DNA from: a virus
Reading direction: 5' to 3' (one strand)
Length of the DNA: 64,000 bases
Virus record (IMG/VR): IMGVR_UViG_3300024348_000023
Location: 1-64,000 of that record
Made by a program: the position numbers and the translations under genes. Below the pieces are notes generated by a model. That model ran no database searches. It was not told the origin of the DNA and saw nothing but the letters and a program-made list of their open reading frames with translations. This document shows positions 1,320 through 15,744 of the stretch, one piece after another; position 1 is the stretch's first letter, and every line of letters begins with the position of its first letter.

Positions 1320-1871
1320 CTACTTTTTCTGATCAGTCGGGAATTGCAATAGCCATTCCTTTGCTTTTGGGGTCATACCCTTCCAAGCTGACCAATCACT
1401 GCCGCCATCGGTCATATAATACGTTATCTCTGCGTTTGTTACTGGGTCGAATAACTCTTTGTTACTCTTTAGGTCGAACTTCTCAAGTCTTTCAGGACCA
1501 AGATTTCCGATCATGTTAATCTGGAATATTCCGTAAGAACTATCTCCAGTTTTCCTATTCCCGTTATAGGCAAGCGGTCTTCCGTTAGATTCACGCTTTG
1601 CTATTGACCAAGCTTTTTTAAGGCTTGACCCTTCGAATCCTACAGTCTTAAGAAGCAATAGCAACTCTTCGTCTGTAAGCATCTCAGATGGCTTGTAAAT
1701 CTCTTTACTAAAACTATCTAAGACTTCTTGCTTTAATTGGGCTTCAGTTTTCACTAAAGGTTTTACTACTAAGGCATTTGCAGGCTGTACAGGAAACAAA
1801 AATAATGTTATCATTACTATTGTGACTATGTTATGAGCCAAATCACTTACCTGTTGTTTTATTTTCTCCAT
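1320..1871 (-). CDS. Lysozyme/transglycosylase-like lysin with signal peptide
   Basis: Predicted cell-wall hydrolase that cleaves the glycan strand of peptidoglycan. Residues about 10-35 form a Sec-type signal: basic start, hydrophobic run IVTIVMITLFLFPVQ, then an ANA cleavage-like site. The C-terminal half carries the lysozyme-like SLT signature: AKRESNGRP supplies the likely catalytic Glu, followed by DSSYGIFQINM. I chose the second ATG because the AGGAGG site lies 8 bases before it; an ATG at 1877 is only 2 bases from that site. It heads the leftward operon behind the promoter at 1905-1934. A holin candidate lies 3 kb away on the other strand. It could instead be a virion-associated lysin; no endopeptidase or binding domain is visible. 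Confidence 0.8.
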   Translation of the reverse strand: MEKIKQQVSDLAHNIVTIVMITLFLFPVQPANALVVKPLVKTEAQLKQEVLDSFSKEIYKPSEMLTDEELLLLLKTVGFEGSSLKKAWSIAKRESNGRPLAYNGNRKTGDSSYGIFQINMIGNLGPERLEKFDLKSNKELFDPVTNAEITYYMTDGGSDWSAWKGMTPKAKEWLLQFPTDQKK

Positions 1872-1904
1872 TGGCATTTCCTCCTCTAGAGATAACGAAC
1901 TATA

Positions 1905-3043: not shown

Positions 3044-4978
3044 ATGTCAAAGACTATTGCTAACCCATATGAAAACTTTATTGCGCTATCTCGATATGCA
3101 AGATGGATTCCAGAAGAGAATAGACGTGAAACATGGGGAGAAACAGTAGATCGCTATTTTGCGTTTATGCTAAACCATTTAAAACAAAATCATAATTATA
3201 TTCCAGATGAAAAGCTTGTAGCGGAATTAAAAGACGGTGTATTTCAAAGAAATGTCATGCCGTCTATGCGCTCCGTTATGACATCTGGAGCAGCATTAGA
3301 AAGAGATAACGTTGCAGGATATAATTGCTCATTTGTCCCAGTAGATAGCCCAAGATCATTTGATGAAACAATGTATATTCTTATGTGTGGTACAGGAGTT
3401 GGATTCTCCGTTGAATACAAGTACGTTAATAAACTTCCTGCCGTCCCAGATTCTTTTGAGAAGTCAGACACAGTCATTGTTGTAGAGGATTCAAAGCAGG
3501 GTTGGGCAAAGGCTTATCGTGAACTACTAGCACTCCTTTGGACTGGACACATTCCAGCAATTGATGTTAGCAAAGTTCGTCCAGCTGGTGCACGTTTAAA
3601 GACAATGGGTGGACGCTCATCAGGACCACAACCATTAATCAATTTGTTTGATTTTACAATTGCAAAGTTTAAAAATGCAGCAGGCCGTCAACTAAAACCA
3701 ATTGAAGCACATGACATCATGTGTAAAATAGGTGAAGTTGTTGTTGTAGGAGGAGTTCGTCGTTCAGCAATGATTTCTCTTTCTAATATTAATGATATTG
3801 AGATGGCAGCAGCAAAGTCAGGCAACTGGTGGGAAAATAATACACAACGTGCATTATCAAATAACTCTGTTGCGTATTCACGCAAGCCAGAGATGGAACA
3901 GTTTATTGCAGAATGGAAATCTTTGTATGATTCAAAATCAGGAGAACGAGGCATATACAATGTGGCCGCAGCTCAAGCCCAAGCAGCCAAGTATGGAAGA
4001 AGAGATCCAGATGTACACTATGGAACTAACCCTTGCTCAGAGATTATCTTACGTCCTTACCAGTTTTGTAATCTTTCAGAAGTCGTACTTCGTGAAAAAG
4101 ATACAGTTGAAGAGGTTGCAAATAAAGTACGCCTTGCAACAATTCTTGGCACGTGGCAATCAACATTAACAGATTTCAAGTATCTTCGTAAAATTTGGAA
4201 AGACAACACAGAAGAAGAGCGCCTACTTGGAGTTTCTTTAACAGGACAATTCGGACACAAATTCTTTTCAGGAAAAGAAAATATTAAAAAGCTAGAAGAT
4301 ACTTTAAGCGGTCTTCGTGAATATGCAAGAGAAACAAATAAAGAAGAGGCTGGGAAAATTGGGATTCCTGAGTCTGCAGCTATTACATGCGTAAAGCCTT
4401 CTGGAACAGTGTCTCAATTGGTCGGGGTATCTTCAGGAATGCATCCATGGCATTCACCATATTATATTCGTACAGTACGTGGCTCAAAGGGAGATCCAAT
4501 CTCTACATTTTTAAAGGAAGTTGGAATTCCTGTAGAAGATGATGTAATGAAGCCAAATGATACATACGTATTTTCATTTCCAGTTAAGGCACCAGAAGGT
4601 GCAATTGTTAGAAATGATCTTACAGCACTGGATCATTTGAACACATGGCTTGTCTATCAACGTGCATGGTGTGAACATAAGCCATCTATCACTGTTTCTG
4701 TAAAAGAAGAAGAGTGGATGGAAGTCGGTGCTTGGGTGTATAAGCATTTTGATGAGGTTTCTGGAATTTCTTTCCTTCCTCATTCAGATCATACATACAA
4801 GCAAGCTCCTTATCAAGAAGTTGATAAAGCAGAGTATGATGCACTTGTTGCAAGGATGCCAAAGAGCATTCGCTGGGAAGATTTATCTTTTTACGAAACA
4901 GAAGACGGAACTTCAACAAATGCTACGCTTGCATGTACTTCAGATGGCAATTGTGAAATAGTAGATATATCTGCCTAA
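3044..4978 (+). CDS. nrdJ: Adenosylcobalamin-dependent (class II) ribonucleotide reductase, RTPR-type
   Basis: Converts ribonucleotides to deoxyribonucleotides using a thiyl radical generated from coenzyme B12, so it needs no oxygen-dependent small subunit. The visible core set matches monomeric class II enzymes: Cys95 in GYNCSFVPVD; Asn329, Cys331 (thiyl radical) and Glu333 in NPCSEIILRP; Cys342 in FCNLSEV; and the C-terminal shuttle pair Cys631/Cys637 (ACTSDGNC). PSGTVSQLVG and GGVRRSAMISLS are further family blocks. At 644 residues it is shorter than the roughly 740-residue Lactobacillus enzyme but all catalytic cysteines are present. No NrdI/thioredoxin partner is seen nearby. It boosts dNTP supply during phage replication. 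Confidence 0.93.
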   Translation: MSKTIANPYENFIALSRYARWIPEENRRETWGETVDRYFAFMLNHLKQNHNYIPDEKLVAELKDGVFQRNVMPSMRSVMTSGAALERDNVAGYNCSFVPVDSPRSFDETMYILMCGTGVGFSVEYKYVNKLPAVPDSFEKSDTVIVVEDSKQGWAKAYRELLALLWTGHIPAIDVSKVRPAGARLKTMGGRSSGPQPLINLFDFTIAKFKNAAGRQLKPIEAHDIMCKIGEVVVVGGVRRSAMISLSNINDIEMAAAKSGNWWENNTQRALSNNSVAYSRKPEMEQFIAEWKSLYDSKSGERGIYNVAAAQAQAAKYGRRDPDVHYGTNPCSEIILRPYQFCNLSEVVLREKDTVEEVANKVRLATILGTWQSTLTDFKYLRKIWKDNTEEERLLGVSLTGQFGHKFFSGKENIKKLEDTLSGLREYARETNKEEAGKIGIPESAAITCVKPSGTVSQLVGVSSGMHPWHSPYYIRTVRGSKGDPISTFLKEVGIPVEDDVMKPNDTYVFSFPVKAPEGAIVRNDLTALDHLNTWLVYQRAWCEHKPSITVSVKEEEWMEVGAWVYKHFDEVSGISFLPHSDHTYKQAPYQEVDKAEYDALVARMPKSIRWEDLSFYETEDGTSTNATLACTSDGNCEIVDISA

Positions 4979-4983
4979 TATGG

Positions 4984-5033
4984 TAGAATTATAGTATTGG
5001 GGTAAATCCCCAAAATTCTGGGCACCCCGCCCA
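4984..5033 (+). promoter_or_regulatory. Extended -10 promoter and double hairpin leader of the holin gene
   Basis: TGG-TAGAAT (4981-4989) predicts initiation near 4996. The transcript would begin almost exactly with a hairpin, TTGGGG (4997-5002)/CCCCAA (5008-5013), followed by a second, TGGGC (5019-5023)/GCCCA (5029-5033). The GGAG ribosome site (5038-5041) follows 8 bases before the holin ATG. No U-tract follows either stem, so these look like leader structures rather than a terminator. No good -35 is visible. Confidence 0.45.
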
Positions 5034-5049
5034 AAATGGAGATGATAAA

Positions 5050-5289
5050 ATGGCTAAATTCAATAAGTTGGATTTAAACAAAGACGGAAAGGTAACAATG
5101 ACAGAACAGATCTTAGCAGCACTTGGAACATATGCTCGTGCATTTCTTTCAGCAGCAATTGCTTTGTACATGACTGGCAATACAAACCCAAAGGACCTTC
5201 TTCTAGGTGGAGTAGCAGCAGTTGCACCAGTAATCCTTAAGGCCCTAAGCCCAAGTAACCAAGAGTTTGGTTTTAAGGCTCCAAAGTAA
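5050..5289 (+). CDS. Holin-like membrane protein with an EF-hand loop
   Basis: 79 residues. Two hydrophobic segments (about 24-42, LAALGTYARAFLSAAIALYM; and 50-66, LLLGGVAAVAPVILKAL) joined by a polar turn NTNPKD fit small phage holins, which form membrane lesions that release the lysin. The N-terminus contains DLNKDGKVTMTE, a complete canonical EF-hand loop (D1, N3, D5, G6, V8, T9, E12) at residues 8-19. Calcium binding would be unusual for a holin. The lysin is encoded 3 kb away on the opposite strand, so the two are not in one operon; a terminator follows this gene. It could be another small phage membrane protein. Confidence 0.65.
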   Translation: MAKFNKLDLNKDGKVTMTEQILAALGTYARAFLSAAIALYMTGNTNPKDLLLGGVAAVAPVILKALSPSNQEFGFKAPK

Positions 5290-5311
5290 AATTTAATACG
5301 AATTAGGGATG

Positions 5312-5342
5312 CTCCTGTGCTAAAATAAGTACAGGAGTTTTC
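5312..5342 (+). terminator. Rho-independent terminator after the holin gene
   Basis: CTCCTGTGCT (5312-5321) pairs with AGTACAGGAG (5328-5337) through 10 positions, one of them G-U, around a 6-base loop. TTTT and further T-rich sequence follow. It separates the holin transcript from the fibre cluster, although the fibre gene at 5360 starts only 18 bases on. Confidence 0.75.
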
Positions 5343-7579: not shown

Positions 7580-9296
<1,717 letters not shown>

Positions 9297-9297
<1 letters not shown>

Positions 9298-10688: not shown

Positions 10689-11582
10689 ATGGCAATTAGG
10701 AACTTTGGTAAACATGGCAGGCGCAAAGTGTCTGTCCCAAACGTAACTGGATCAACCAGGTCTAATGCTCAAATAGCAATTACTTCAGCTCAATTAACAT
10801 ACTCAGAGTCTTCAACAAATACATCCGATATTGGTCTTTCGCAAGTAGTTCAAAGCCAAGGAGTTTCTTCAGGGTCTGTTGTTTTAATAGGAAGTAATAT
10901 CCCATTTACTTATTATAACTATGTCGCACCCCCAGTCGTTCCACCAGTGGTTCCACCAGTCAACCCTCCAGTCAACCCTCCAGTTGTTCCTCCAGTAACC
11001 CCACCAGTTGCACCTACAATTAATTCAATTACAGAGTCATCAACATGTACAACTATCTCTATTAATTGGTCAGGAAGCAATGCTGCTTCATATGCTGTTA
11101 CAAATTCTACAGGTTGGACTTCTCCTACATCAGGTGAAGGCGGAAATTCTGGATCTTGGACAGGAACTATTGGTGCTTGCGGTACTACAAGAACAGCAAC
11201 CCTTCGACTCTACTCTGGCCCAGGACAAACTGGACTTTCAACATCACAAGCGTTCTCTATAAGTACAATATCTTGTGCTACCTGTTTCCCTCCAGTGGTT
11301 CCTCCAGTGGTTCCTCCAGTGGTTCCTCCAGTGGTTCCTCCAGTCAACCCTCCAGTCAACCCTCCAGTCAACCCTCCAGTCAACCCTCCAGTGGTTCCTC
11401 CAGTGGTTCCTCCAGTGGTTCCTCCAGTGGTTCCTCCAGTGGTTCCTCCAGTGGTTCCTCCAGTGGTTCCTCCAGTGGTTCCTCCAGTAACTCCAGCGGT
11501 TGATTGTTCTACAGCATCTTGCGCTAACGACCCAGGCAGAGCTTGTTGCTTCTATTTAAGAGGCGTTTGTCGTGCTTGCTAA
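10689..11582 (+). CDS. PASTA-domain protein with polyproline spacers
   Basis: Residues about 15-80 match a PASTA domain: SVPNVTGSTRSNAQIAITSA then VVQSQGVSSGSVVLIGSNIP. PASTA domains bind muropeptides or peptidoglycan in serine/threonine kinases and penicillin-binding proteins. A first Pro-Pro-Val spacer follows, then an Ig/FN3-like beta domain (TINSITESSTCTTISINWSG), then a second spacer of 16 V-[V/N]-P-P units, and a cysteine-rich tail (CSTASC...ACCFYLRGVCRAC) with six cysteines. This looks like a wall-binding virion appendage with rigid polyproline arms. A weak terminator follows. A role in cell-surface recognition is inferred. Confidence 0.75.
   Translation: MAIRNFGKHGRRKVSVPNVTGSTRSNAQIAITSAQLTYSESSTNTSDIGLSQVVQSQGVSSGSVVLIGSNIPFTYYNYVAPPVVPPVVPPVNPPVNPPVVPPVTPPVAPTINSITESSTCTTISINWSGSNAASYAVTNSTGWTSPTSGEGGNSGSWTGTIGACGTTRTATLRLYSGPGQTGLSTSQAFSISTISCATCFPPVVPPVVPPVVPPVVPPVNPPVNPPVNPPVNPPVVPPVVPPVVPPVVPPVVPPVVPPVVPPVVPPVTPAVDCSTASCANDPGRACCFYLRGVCRAC
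11292..11483 (+). repeat. Sixteen tandem 12-base repeats (polyproline-coding)
   Basis: Units CCAGTGGTTCCT (PVVP) and CCAGTCAACCCT (PVNP) occur as 4 + 4 + 8 consecutive copies, nearly identical at the DNA level. A shorter block of the same units lies at about 10928-11010. The low divergence suggests recent slippage or unequal exchange; every change would be in frame. Confidence 0.9.
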
Positions 11583-12317: not shown

Positions 12318-12884
12318 ATGAAAGAATTAGCAACAGGAATTGTTTTATTTGAAAACGTATTTCCCGAATCAATGGAGTATATAAAAAAGATAGAAGAGTC
12401 AGGCATTTCTTGGAGAGCCGCAGAGGTACTTGTAAATGAACAAGAGCATGAATCTGGAACAAATACAAAAGCTAGAGATACAGATTTAATTATGCTTCCA
12501 CATCATGCTGATCAAGGATACTCCGTTCTTAATGAATTTACAAAAAGGTTTCATGAGCAGATGAAGCCATGCTTAGATCAATACATGGCAGCCTATTACG
12601 CAAAGATAGAAAAGTTTGAAAGTCCACAATTGCTTAGGTATGGTAAAGAGCAAAAATTCCATGATCATATTGATGACCATCCATTTTTTACTCGTAGAAT
12701 ATCTTTGACTTATTATTTAAATGACGAATATGAGGGTGGAGATGTTGAGTTTAAAAGACACGGCCTTAGATTTAAAGCAAAAAAGAATGATCTTTTAATA
12801 TTTCCATCAAACTTTTTATACAACCATGAAGTTCATCCAGTTGTAGATGGATTAAGATATGTGGTGGTTCAATGGATGGCATAA
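12318..12884 (+). CDS. 2-oxoglutarate/Fe(II) oxygenase, prolyl-4-hydroxylase-like
   Basis: A 188-residue double-stranded beta-helix dioxygenase that should hydroxylate a substrate using O2 and 2-oxoglutarate. The metal triad is visible: His117 and Asp119 (HIDDHP, an HxD motif) and distal His170 (NHEVHPV), with Arg180 (GLRYVVVQW) positioned to bind the co-substrate carboxylate. RRISLTYYLNDEYEGGDVEF is the typical central block of P4H-type enzymes. The substrate is unknown. Neighbours include collagen-like and polyproline fibres, two more oxygenases and glycosyltransferases, which favours protein hydroxylation, but nucleotide or glycan substrates cannot be excluded. Confidence 0.85.
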   Translation: MKELATGIVLFENVFPESMEYIKKIEESGISWRAAEVLVNEQEHESGTNTKARDTDLIMLPHHADQGYSVLNEFTKRFHEQMKPCLDQYMAAYYAKIEKFESPQLLRYGKEQKFHDHIDDHPFFTRRISLTYYLNDEYEGGDVEFKRHGLRFKAKKNDLLIFPSNFLYNHEVHPVVDGLRYVVVQWMA

Positions 12885-13429
12885 ATAAAGAAGTTGGATT
12901 AATTAAAAATGTTTTAAGCTCTACAGACTTTGATAGACTTTGTATGCATTTTAAAAATCATGAAGGCCTTGATATAGCCCCTACCGATGAATTTGGTAGA
13001 AAATTGGCGGGAGATAAATCAGAACCAATATTAAAAGAATTTAGTGAGCTGTTATTGCCAAAGGTACGAGAGTATTTTGGAAGTCAAACAATGCTTCCTT
13101 CATATTCTTTATTTGCAGAATATTCTGATGAGACAATCAGTCTTCATAAGCATAAAGACGCAAATGCTTGCACATACACACTTGATTTAGTTCTCTATCA
13201 AGGAGATCCCTGGGCATTGTATGTAGACGGAAAACCCTACATAGCAAAACCAAACGAAGCAATTCTATTTATGGGTGAAGATTACGAGCATTGGAGAGAA
13301 ACACTTTATAACAATACTGGCAAAATAGGTGTTGTATTTTTCCATTACGTAGAGCCAGATCATTGGTATTTTACAAAAGGCCCAGAATACGTGAAAGAAA
13401 TATGGGCACAGCGACAGACACAGAAATAA
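12872..13429 (+). CDS. 2-oxoglutarate/Fe(II) oxygenase-like protein
   Basis: 185 residues with a probable oxygenase core: His94-x-Asp96 (LHKHKDAN), distal His140 followed by Arg142 (YEHWRE), and a terminal block VFFHYVEPDHWYF. It is clearly related to the 238-residue protein at 15028, which shares the same H-x-D, H-x-R and EPDHWFF blocks, and only distantly to the P4H-like protein upstream. It overlaps that gene by 13 bases. The substrate is unknown. Uncharacterised phage oxygenases of this shape are common; here the context of fibre, glycosyltransferase and sulfotransferase genes hints at a modification pathway. Confidence 0.7.
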   Translation: MDGINKEVGLIKNVLSSTDFDRLCMHFKNHEGLDIAPTDEFGRKLAGDKSEPILKEFSELLLPKVREYFGSQTMLPSYSLFAEYSDETISLHKHKDANACTYTLDLVLYQGDPWALYVDGKPYIAKPNEAILFMGEDYEHWRETLYNNTGKIGVVFFHYVEPDHWYFTKGPEYVKEIWAQRQTQK

Positions 13430-14364
13430 ATTTTCTTCATCCAGGGGTATCTTACAGTAATGTTAGATCTTTTGACCATGAAGAAAATACCGTTTATGAG
13501 TTTGATAATGTTAGATATGCTAAAACAAATGAAGAAACAAGAATAAGAAAGCTAAAGGGAACCTATCTTCCAATAGTCCCAACACCTCATTATTTTCATT
13601 TCCTTAAAGAGTACCTAGGATCTTTTTTATATTATCGGGAGCATGTAGATCCTAACGCTAAAGTCTTATGGATAAATCTACACTGGGAAGCTCAAGACTA
13701 TCATGACACGCATGAGCCAATTCAAAAAACATTAGATCTTTTATCAGAAAAAAATATTCCAATTGTCTTTTTAAGTATAGACTCTATTTTTAATAATAAT
13801 ATAGAATTTGAAAAAGTAGCAGTAATTTATGACACAGCAACATTTTTTGTATCTACGGAATTTCCTTATTTTGATCAATTTAAACATACAAATAACGAAC
13901 AGGTTAGAGATTTTTTTAAAGACTTTATGTTAAAAGACACAGCCTATCCTAAAAAAGTATATGTTTCTAGAAGAAGTGTAAGTAAGTATTTAGATAACCA
14001 CGATATGAAAAATCACATATCTAGATATAATGAAAAGCATGTTGAGGATGCACTAGAAGATTTTTTTGTTCAAAAGGGGTACCATGTAATAGATTTTTCA
14101 GGCATGCCAATACAAGAACAAATTATGTATATGTACAATGCCACTCATGTATCTGGCCTAATGGGTGCAAATACGTGGAATGGAATTTTCTGTGATAATG
14201 GAGTGAAACACTATTGCCTACAAACTCATATGTGGTTTAATCACGAATATGATAAAGATATTGAAAAAGTAATTGATTTTGAATACCAGCTAGTAAAAAT
14301 ACATAATCTTGAGTCTTATGAGTCCGTATTCAAGGATCTCTCTGATCAAATTGTTGATGCGTAA
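13402..14364 (+). CDS. GT61/DUF563-like glycosyltransferase
   Basis: Likely glycosyltransferase of the GT61 type, the family that includes eukaryotic EOGT and xylosyl/arabinosyltransferases. The C-terminal block is diagnostic: PKKVYVSRRSVSKY, a VEDALEDFFVQKGYHVIDF segment, GMPIQEQI, and HVSGLMGANTWNGIFCDNG. No signal peptide. The frame is open to an ATG at 13363 but that would overlap the upstream gene by 67 bases; the ATG at 13402, after GAAAGAAAT, is preferred. EOGT acts on Ser/Thr hydroxyls of proteins, an intriguing parallel to the Thr-rich collagen fibres, but the substrate here is unknown. Its 3' end overlaps the convergent sulfotransferase-like gene by 19 bases. Confidence 0.72.
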   Translation: MGTATDTEINFLHPGVSYSNVRSFDHEENTVYEFDNVRYAKTNEETRIRKLKGTYLPIVPTPHYFHFLKEYLGSFLYYREHVDPNAKVLWINLHWEAQDYHDTHEPIQKTLDLLSEKNIPIVFLSIDSIFNNNIEFEKVAVIYDTATFFVSTEFPYFDQFKHTNNEQVRDFFKDFMLKDTAYPKKVYVSRRSVSKYLDNHDMKNHISRYNEKHVEDALEDFFVQKGYHVIDFSGMPIQEQIMYMYNATHVSGLMGANTWNGIFCDNGVKHYCLQTHMWFNHEYDKDIEKVIDFEYQLVKIHNLESYESVFKDLSDQIVDA

Positions 14365-14969
14365 GAGTACAACTCAATATCTTTTTTATTGTATTCTTTA
14401 ATAGTATCTAAAATTTCTTTGTTGCTATTTATTAGACTCAAAAAAGGATCCTCTATTGGCATAAAGGTTTGTTCATAATCTTGAGGATAATATGGAAACT
14501 CATGGGATATTTCAAGAGCAGATAGCACCTTGTTTCTAAATTTATTTTCATTGCCCTGCAAACCTTCAACACGAAGAAGCATATTTATTCTTGAAAGGTT
14601 ATTACCAATAGTTTGAGATTGATAGTTTCTAACGTGTTTGGTATCAAGCCACACTAAAAGGTTTTCTATGGTAAGGGTTGGGCAATCTCTGTCTCTCCCC
14701 TTTCCGTGAGTTCTAACCCCATTTTCCCCATAGTTAGACCACCATACAAAATCCGAAAGGGTCCTCCAAACTGGATCCCTAACTAAACATAATATAAAAG
14801 TTTGAGAGTCAAAGTCTTTCCAGTGGTTGTGATCCGCATGGTTTTTATTTAAGCTTATTGCAGATATACCTTTTTCTTCAATGGCCTTATATAAGCCATC
14901 AAACATCCTAACCCCTGCCGTTTTTGCAGTTATTTTGTCAAGATGTAAAAAATAAAATTGATTATACAT
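14346..14969 (-). CDS. Sulfotransferase-like protein on the opposite strand
   Basis: 207 residues. FYFLHLDKITAKTAG (5-19) resembles the N-terminal PAPS 5'-phosphosulfate loop of Sulfotransfer_2-type enzymes (usually F.H.PKTGGT), and TFILCLVRDPVWRTLSDF (57-74) matches the 3'-phosphate-binding RDP..R..S block. These two blocks at the correct spacing support transfer of sulfate from PAPS. The first loop is longer than usual, so activity is uncertain. It is the only minus-strand gene in the fibre cluster and starts from the palindromic promoter at 14976-15001 with almost no leader. Sulfation of sugars or tyrosines on phage or host surface is a possible role. Confidence 0.6.
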   Translation of the reverse strand: MYNQFYFLHLDKITAKTAGVRMFDGLYKAIEEKGISAISLNKNHADHNHWKDFDSQTFILCLVRDPVWRTLSDFVWWSNYGENGVRTHGKGRDRDCPTLTIENLLVWLDTKHVRNYQSQTIGNNLSRINMLLRVEGLQGNENKFRNKVLSALEISHEFPYYPQDYEQTFMPIEDPFLSLINSNKEILDTIKEYNKKDIELYSYASTI

Positions 14970-14975
14970 ACCCTT

Positions 14976-15001
14976 TATAGTATATCAAATGATATACTAT
15001 A
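14976..15001. promoter_or_regulatory. Palindromic bidirectional promoter/operator
   Basis: A perfect inverted repeat, TATAGTATATC, loop AAAT, GATATACTATA (11-base arms). Each arm contains TATACT, on the plus strand at 14993-14998 and on the minus strand at 14984-14979. It lies exactly between the divergent sulfotransferase-like gene and the oxygenase at 15028. It could serve as two opposed -10 elements, a repressor site, or both. -35 elements are poor. Confidence 0.5.
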
Positions 15002-15027
15002 GGTATCTAGACCAATAGGAGAAAACG

Positions 15028-15744
15028 ATGACAGTTAAAGTTGAAGCAAGATCAATAGTGGATTTTTTCCCACAAGAGCTTTTTGAAAAAGTTAAAGCTC
15101 AGGTTTTATCTTTAAACATGGGTCCAGGCGGACCGCATTTTTATCATCCAGTCGCTGGAAGATGGCTAACAGAAATTAATTTTGACGATGAAACAGAGTC
15201 TGAAATACTTGAGATAGCAAAAAAGACCTTCGGAGTGGATACTATAAAAAGAGCTGGTTTCCATACTGCTAGATATCAAAAACAAAATGGAATTAAGCCA
15301 CAGCTGTGGAAGCATGTAGACCAGTCAGCATGCCAATACTCTTTAGATATTTGTATTGAAAAAACAGTCGACTGGCAATTAGTAGCAGATGAAAAAACTT
15401 TTGACGAAGCTCCAAATCAATGTATAGTTTTTTGTGGTAATGATCACATGCATTATCGCCCAGAATATCCAACTGAAGATGAAGACAAGTATGTAACTTT
15501 GTTGTTTATGCAATTTGCTGAGCCAGATCACTGGTTCTTTTCAGAAAACAGATCTGAAGGATTTGCAGAAAATAGCTGGAAAAATGATTTTAAGTTTAGA
15601 GCTAAATACGGTTACTGGGCTATGCCAGACTATAGTAACAATAGGCCCATTTGCAAATGCTGCGACTACAGGCATGTAGCTAACTTTGAAGAAAAATATC
15701 AAAATGAAAAAGAATATTGGGACTCTCAGTACTCCAATTCTTAA
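15028..15744 (+). CDS. 2-oxoglutarate/Fe(II) oxygenase-like protein, 238 aa
   Basis: Paralogue of the protein at 12872. Metal-ligand candidates are His96-x-Asp98 (LWKHVDQSA) and distal His142 with Arg144 (DHMHYRPE), and AEPDHWFFSE forms the closing block. A C-terminal extension of about 50 residues carries CKCCDYRH, a possible small metal site absent from the paralogue. AGGAG precedes the start. It is divergent from the sulfotransferase-like gene, sharing the palindromic promoter region. Substrate unknown; co-location with transferases suggests successive modification of one polymer or protein. Confidence 0.7.
   Translation: MTVKVEARSIVDFFPQELFEKVKAQVLSLNMGPGGPHFYHPVAGRWLTEINFDDETESEILEIAKKTFGVDTIKRAGFHTARYQKQNGIKPQLWKHVDQSACQYSLDICIEKTVDWQLVADEKTFDEAPNQCIVFCGNDHMHYRPEYPTEDEDKYVTLLFMQFAEPDHWFFSENRSEGFAENSWKNDFKFRAKYGYWAMPDYSNNRPICKCCDYRHVANFEEKYQNEKEYWDSQYSNS

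Follow-up and report, generated by a model that had tools for sequence, protein, structure and literature searches.

A conserved calcium-type loop on a putative dual-start holin of uncultured aquatic phages

A small membrane protein gene carried by an uncultured virus is read here, with a probability of about 0.45, as a dual-start class II holin gene, in which the long form bears a calcium-responsive N-terminal F-hand tail that has been kept by selection. The gene lies in a stretch of 64,000 nucleotides (hereafter, the window) of the IMG/VR record IMGVR_UViG_3300024348_000023, a viral contig of 72,168 bases, and the features on which the argument depends are collected in Table 1. The timing of lysis is governed by holins, and the nature of their trigger is a long-standing question, with membrane potential as the known cue. 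The retention of the loop in hundreds of relatives suggests that calcium may help to control the timing of host burst. A holin clade with an apparently selected calcium site and with natural intact, lysine-substituted and deleted variants lends itself to a direct, easy test of ion-triggered lysis and, if the reading is true, a link would follow between the calcium level of the water and the lysis of aquatic actinobacteria by their common phages.

Table 1. Features of the holin-like locus and its surroundings, in window coordinates
Feature	Position	Strand	Evidence
SLT_3 lysozyme-like protein, a candidate for an exported wall hydrolase; hydrophobic N-terminus (signal or anchor)	1320..1877	-	Pfam SLT_3 E=2e-12; in 363/387 syntenic loci
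Class II (B12) ribonucleotide reductase, the gene next upstream in all loop-bearing loci	3044..4978	+	Pfam; 67% identical to Yaboi reductase; synteny
Extended -10 promoter-like site (TG-TAGAAT)	4962..4989	+	Consensus scan, alone no better than chance; TGGTAGAAT-like sequence kept upstream of relatives
Leader hairpin 1 (TTGGGG-TAAAT-CCCCAA)	4997..5013	+	Pairing kept in relatives with compensatory changes
Leader hairpin 2 (TGGGC-ACCCC-GCCCA)	5019..5033	+	Pairing kept in relatives with compensatory changes
GGAG, Shine-Dalgarno for the long-form ATG at 5050 (-12)	5038..5041	+	Sequence; conserved upstream of relatives
Holin-like protein gene, 79 aa	5050..5289	+	ORF; homologues adjoining endolysins
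Canonical EF (calcium) loop of 12 residues, DLNKDGKVTMTE; no entering helix	5071..5106	+	Translation; ligand-specific selection
GGAAAGG, Shine-Dalgarno-like, in loop codons G6-K7-V8; GGA at -12 from internal ATG	5086..5092	+	Duplex energy; Gly6 codon bias
Candidate internal start, Met17 = loop position 10	5098..5100	+	Start codon in 194/194 unique loops; loop-less relatives begin at this alignment position
Hairpin resembling an intrinsic terminator, at the end of the transcription unit	5311..5338	+	Stem of 11 pairs followed by a T tract; 1 observed vs 0.3 expected

The open reading frame translates to MAKFNKLDLNKDGKVTMTEQILAALGTYARAFLSAAIALYMTGNTNPKDLLLGGVAAVAPVILKALSPSNQEFGFKAPK, whose hydropathy (KD19 = 1.82) was the highest among the window's proteins of fewer than 150 aa. 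An AlphaFold2 model, obtained from a 50-sequence alignment and run without ions (mean pLDDT 69), placed helices at residues 17-41 and 47-66, and the size of the protein and its two predicted helices are those of class II holins. Four lysines stand ahead of helix 1 and the short turn has almost no net charge, and from this charge distribution a cytoplasmic N-terminus is more likely.

The loop occupies residues 8-19, and it had been described in the original prediction as a canonical EF-hand loop just before two membrane segments. All 12 positions indeed fit an EF loop, with D1, N3, D5, G6, K7 (through its backbone), V8, T9 and E12; however, no full EF-hand is formed, since the entering helix is absent and no helix was modelled in residues 1-16. 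Similarly, two helices do follow the loop, but helix 1 begins at loop position 10, and the final three loop residues are already helical. Because the entering helix is missing, the best description of the modelled region is an F-hand, that is, a calcium loop with an exiting helix, which would here be the first membrane segment. The loop itself had a pLDDT of about 55-62, i.e., low confidence and an ill-defined conformation in a model without ions. Residue 13, counted from the loop start, is a polar glutamine, and the PROSITE EF-hand pattern requires a hydrophobic residue at this position. The Pfam EF-hand_5 profile matched the protein with E=3e-4 and 20.5 bits, under its 25.9-bit cut-off, which agrees with the lack of an entering helix, and matched 31 of 51 family members at E<=1; Dockerin_1 reached 13.1 bits, below its cut-off of 22.9 bits and with the motif in a single copy, and gave sub-threshold matches in 18 of the 51. 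Most of the PDB hits, by sequence or by fold, were fragments of eukaryotic EF-hands or folds of no significance. Seven residues stand ahead of the loop in the window protein, and many relatives have only two or three there (MNRDLNKDGKVTMTEE..., MKEDLNNDGKVTMQEK...); this N-terminal stretch was found to vary freely. Single EF loops that have no partner usually bind calcium weakly; that this one binds the ion in vivo is considered fairly likely.

Relatives were gathered by queries both with and without the loop and, as the same contigs were found again by several scans, the counts were redone on distinct neighbourhoods. The loop-bearing clade comprises uncultured aquatic phages, apparently with actinobacteria as hosts, and the loop was intact in 222 of its approximately 235 distinct neighbourhoods, the others including nine with Lys at position 3 and four in which DGKVT had been deleted. 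Over the 387 loci with a reductase neighbour, the corresponding numbers were 364, 11 and 12, and this neighbour was found in none of 54 other loop-less loci. A core-only query, free of the loop, retrieved 80 loci, 75 of them intact and four with Lys-3, the last being a truncated contig. Conservation in relatives, which had been set beforehand as the check able to refute a functional loop, was thereby observed, together with the ligand-specific purifying selection described below. On a tree of the reductase, losses of the loop are found at shallow, scattered points, so that the loop is ancestral to the clade and was later lost on occasion, or else exchanged by recombination. The Lys-3 lineages (DLKKNGLVEMQE, DLKQNGLLEMQE) were also altered at loop positions 5, 7 and 9, as expected after the ion site is gone. 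These conversions and the DGKVT deletions (DLNK/MLEQ; DLGK/EASK) make up a natural loss series, represented by L431, L441, L137 (gene starts), L362, L406 and L432. The loop is broken or gone in about 13 of 235 neighbourhoods, whose phages presumably still lyse their hosts, so that neither the loop nor calcium binding is indispensable to the core function of the holin.

The nature of the selection was addressed by parsimony counts on a tree of 194 unique sequences, which was built without the loop. Loop codons 1, 3, 5, 6 and 12 had undergone nine amino-acid changes against 87 synonymous ones, compared with 45 against 71 at the remaining loop codons (Fisher p=6e-7). Six of these nine changes were D/N swaps, in which the ligand is kept, and three were N3K losses. 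Neither E12 nor D1 ever changed in amino acid, with 31 synonymous changes at E12 and only two at D1, and charge-equivalent swaps such as E12D or D1E were not found in any of the 194 unique loops. As read from the codons, this pattern is that of a metal site, and the loop has probably been selected as such. A chance origin of the loop was also considered, and was ruled out by the intact loops of the neighbourhoods (222 of ~235) and of the loop-free query (75 of 80), along with the codon analysis.

It had also been proposed that the loop might be a structural relic. A relic, or a coincidental resemblance with no present function, would be consistent with the minority of lineages that have lost the loop with no obvious harm. 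However, the loop is conserved over wide divergence, and purifying selection falls specifically on the ligands amid many synonymous changes, so that the proposal is unsupported for most of the clade and, being largely refuted by the codon analysis, is now very improbable.

The same selection could, on the other hand, have maintained a structural clamp rather than a sensor. In this case, the loop would always be filled with calcium, either through an N-terminus outside the cytoplasm or through tight binding, and would do no more than cap and stabilise helix 1 or pair with the loops of adjacent subunits in the assembled lesion. The EF loop is continuous with the helix cap in the AlphaFold2 model, holin oligomers would bring the loops together, and D1, G6 and E12 are invariant even in the Lys-3 lineages, in which the Lys at a ligand position and a new Glu9 could electrostatically stand in for the ion, suggesting that a folded loop matters more than sensing. 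Nevertheless, the charge distribution favours an N-terminus in the cytoplasm, where calcium is low, and the deletion lineages manage without any loop; such a clamp is rather unlikely, but it is the chief competitor of the favoured reading.

The assignment of the protein as a holin derives mainly from its genomic context. The window phage is a distant relative of the Stanwilliamsviridae, with a portal 58% and a ribonucleotide reductase 67% identical to those of Streptomyces phages, and its gene order is that of Yaboi: a minus-strand transglycosylase-like gene, a glycosyltransferase, the ribonucleotide reductase, the lysis slot, structural genes and the portal. The glycosyltransferase is 47% identical to that of Yaboi, and glycosyltransferase, reductase and portal are collinear at 47-67% identity. 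The slot that follows the reductase contains an Amidase_2 endolysin in Yaboi and BillNye and the holin-like gene in the window; the reductase lies directly upstream of this slot in the loop-bearing clade, Yaboi and BillNye alike. Among approximately 49 loop-less relatives outside the clade, 42 have a wall hydrolase nearby (CHAP in 30, VanY in 12), and CHAP genes are usually no more than tens of bases away. In BFVD, the top structural matches were annotated Holin (E=4e-3, 41% identity). The earlier description of the protein as holin-like is thus well supported. With respect to known holin profiles, no PHROG was found for the 79-aa protein, its 50 relatives matched only weak, mostly unnamed PHROGs, and no Pfam holin family was hit; holins form many unrelated families, and a match to a known profile is not strictly defining. 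Genome collections yielded one loop-less relative, in a metagenome-assembled bacterium, and plasmid collections yielded none. The kinship with Streptomyces phages and with phage DSL-LC01 points to actinobacterial hosts.

The minus-strand SLT_3 protein occupies the position of the Yaboi transglycosylase, with no significant sequence match between the two; its closest GenBank phage matches are from Streptomyces phages WheeHeim and Forthebois. Its hydrophobic N-terminus is followed by an Ala-x-Ala-like PANA, and it is possibly an exported or signal-anchor endolysin. In the loop-bearing clade it is the nearest wall hydrolase, about 3.2 kb away on the opposite strand, and no endolysin is adjacent. 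Near-complete relatives have one holin-like gene and one SLT_3 gene each, and in four of seven of them a CHAP enzyme is encoded about 40 kb from the holin-like gene. This second, endolysin-like gene has no evident signal and adjoins a nuclease-like gene (L446 4300-4923 (-), L447 5067-5684 (+)), and one relative has two tandem DUF2061-like (two-helix) membrane proteins close to it. Because of this remote CHAP gene, and of its DUF2061 two-helix neighbour in one relative, the holin assignment is strong but not closed; judged from sequence and synteny, the 79-aa protein is very probably a holin. The distance to the wall hydrolase and the immediate proximity of ribonucleotide reductase would agree instead with a non-holin small membrane protein, such as a factor for superinfection exclusion or a protein that partners the reductase at the membrane, that is only incidentally shared with lysis cassettes. 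This is improbable, since CHAP or VanY endolysins adjoin the loop-less homologues, Yaboi and BillNye hold an endolysin in the same slot, and the gene has its own promoter-like site and terminator. Other genes were noted in the window: a protein with long PPVV-type proline-rich repeats (10689-11582, +), a neighbouring tail protein with collagen-like G-x-T/A repeats (7882-9297) and, among the tail genes (12318-15744), auxiliary genes for a 2OG-Fe(II) oxygenase, a glycosyltransferase 61 and a protein whose PHROG match is labelled ferrochelatase.

A feature overlooked in the original prediction is an in-frame start codon inside the loop itself, which alters what mechanism is likely, as the loop would then belong to the long form only. 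It was observed that all 194 unique loops contain a start codon behind a Shine-Dalgarno-like GGR, as an ATG at position 10 (GTG in L285) or as an ATG at position 11 where position 10 is Glu. In the window, the codons ahead of the internal ATG are GGAAAGGTAACA, and their duplex energy with the actinobacterial anti-Shine-Dalgarno is -8.1, compared with medians of -6.4 for the real starts of this phage and -2.1 for its internal ATGs, only 2% of which reach -8.0. As about one quarter of synonymous shuffles match the observed ribosome-site energy, the signal from this single sequence is modest, and the base-rate test and a codon-column test were added after the weak per-sequence shuffle result. In the codon-column test, 10 of 12 synonymous events at Gly6 kept a purine ending, compared with 12 of 80 in the remaining two conserved Gly columns (p=4e-6, with only 12 events at Gly6), and GGG, otherwise rare, was common at Gly6. 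The predicted short form of 63 aa would lack the loop and agree in length and start with the loop-less relatives. Owing to the universal start codon and the purine restriction at Gly6, the gene looks like a dual-start holin gene with the calcium loop on its long product only, and the odds that the internal start is used are put slightly above even.

These observations could also mean that the extension is chiefly a dual-start device, in which a charged tail makes the long form an antiholin, the EF-like sequence being simply the version of that tail which became fixed in this clade, and calcium having no role. Besides the invariable start codon, the Gly6 restriction and the strong Shine-Dalgarno-like energy, it would account for the Met being kept in L431 and L441 in spite of the DGKVT deletion, and charged N-terminal residues distinguish known antiholins (PMC7312051, PMC13056207). 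However, it leaves unexplained why the amino acids D1, N3, D5, V8 and E12 are conserved in spite of synonymous variation in their codons, and why E12D and D1E are absent, and it is regarded as unlikely, more so than a clamp.

The gene is preceded by a dedicated leader (window 4980-5041), which comprises a TGGTAGAAT-type extended -10, two hairpins and then the ribosome site. Framed by the promoter-like site, the hairpins and the terminator, the holin-like gene is predicted to be its own transcription unit. An Rfam scan of the leader gave no credible match; the leader could regulate holin expression.

In the favoured reading, that of a dual-start holin with a calcium-responsive long form, the gene would encode a two-helix (class II-type) holin whose F-hand was present at the base of a clade related to Stanwilliamsviridae and was kept by selection for calcium ligation. 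Two products would be made, namely the 79-aa long form with the loop and the 63-aa short form that starts inside the loop and resembles the loop-less relatives. Free calcium is scarce in the cytoplasm and present outside. In the low-calcium cytoplasm, the loop on the charged tail of the long form would be empty and flexible, restraining lesion formation. Upon the first membrane leak, or exposure of the tail to the outside, calcium would fill the loop, neutralise its acidic residues and stiffen the start of helix 1, and the calcium-filled long form would then join the lesion, leading to abrupt lysis; filling of the loop on first leakage would amount to positive feedback. The loop, its conservation and ligand-specific selection, the lysis context and the internal start codon with its site were observed directly; calcium binding, topology, internal-start use and gating are what we infer from them. 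An effect of calcium on holin triggering, whether by gating of the lesion or by a response to leakage as suggested in the original prediction, is proposed tentatively, with odds somewhat short of even. The complete ligand-gated lysis switch, in which the long form is a calcium-sensing antiholin that becomes a holin at the first leak and the short form is a constitutive holin, is more speculative still and is regarded as doubtful.

Dual-start holin/antiholin pairs have been described for lambda and phage 21 (PMC7312051; PMC13056207). As in the phage 21 pinholin S21-68/71 and lambda S105/S107, a small membrane protein (with two helices in S21) is encoded here by one gene with apparently two in-frame starts, the long form differs only by a charged N-terminal tail, and an exported-type lysozyme, here SLT_3, is nearby. 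In contrast, the extension comprises 16 residues with a complete calcium loop, compared with 2-3 residues in those proteins, and no sequence similarity to them was found. DxDxDG loops are known to bind calcium outside full EF-hands (PMC3123361), and, like the F-hand of Dockerin type I and further DxDxDG loops with one helix, the window loop leads into an exiting helix and lacks an entering one; unlike that of Dockerin type I, it is single, has no cohesin-type partner and is joined to the membrane helix of a phage lysis protein. All 12 loop positions are those of canonical EF-hands (Pfam EF-hand_1 and EF-hand_5; PF00036/PF13202), from which the window protein differs in its lack of an entering helix or partner hand, its scores below the Pfam cut-offs and its polar residue 13. 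The loop-less homologues (Actinomycetia phage DSL-LC01 WJZ48444.1 and aquatic viral contigs) share the same two-helix core at ~50% identity, the conserved TxP turn and the FG tail, but have no calcium loop, and their gene is near an endolysin instead of ribonucleotide reductase. No calcium-binding holin was found in the literature searched, which included few subscription papers, so that this absence is weak evidence; the papers on EF-hands and holins dealt, to judge by title and abstract, mostly with endolysins. Calcium-dependent phage endolysins such as LysGH15, which contains an EF-hand-like site and a CHAP domain with calcium-dependent activity (PMC4022735), likewise carry a calcium site in a phage lysis protein, but in the enzyme rather than in the protein that makes the membrane hole. 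Holins, dual starts and F-hands are each known, and it is their combination in one gene that seems to be new.
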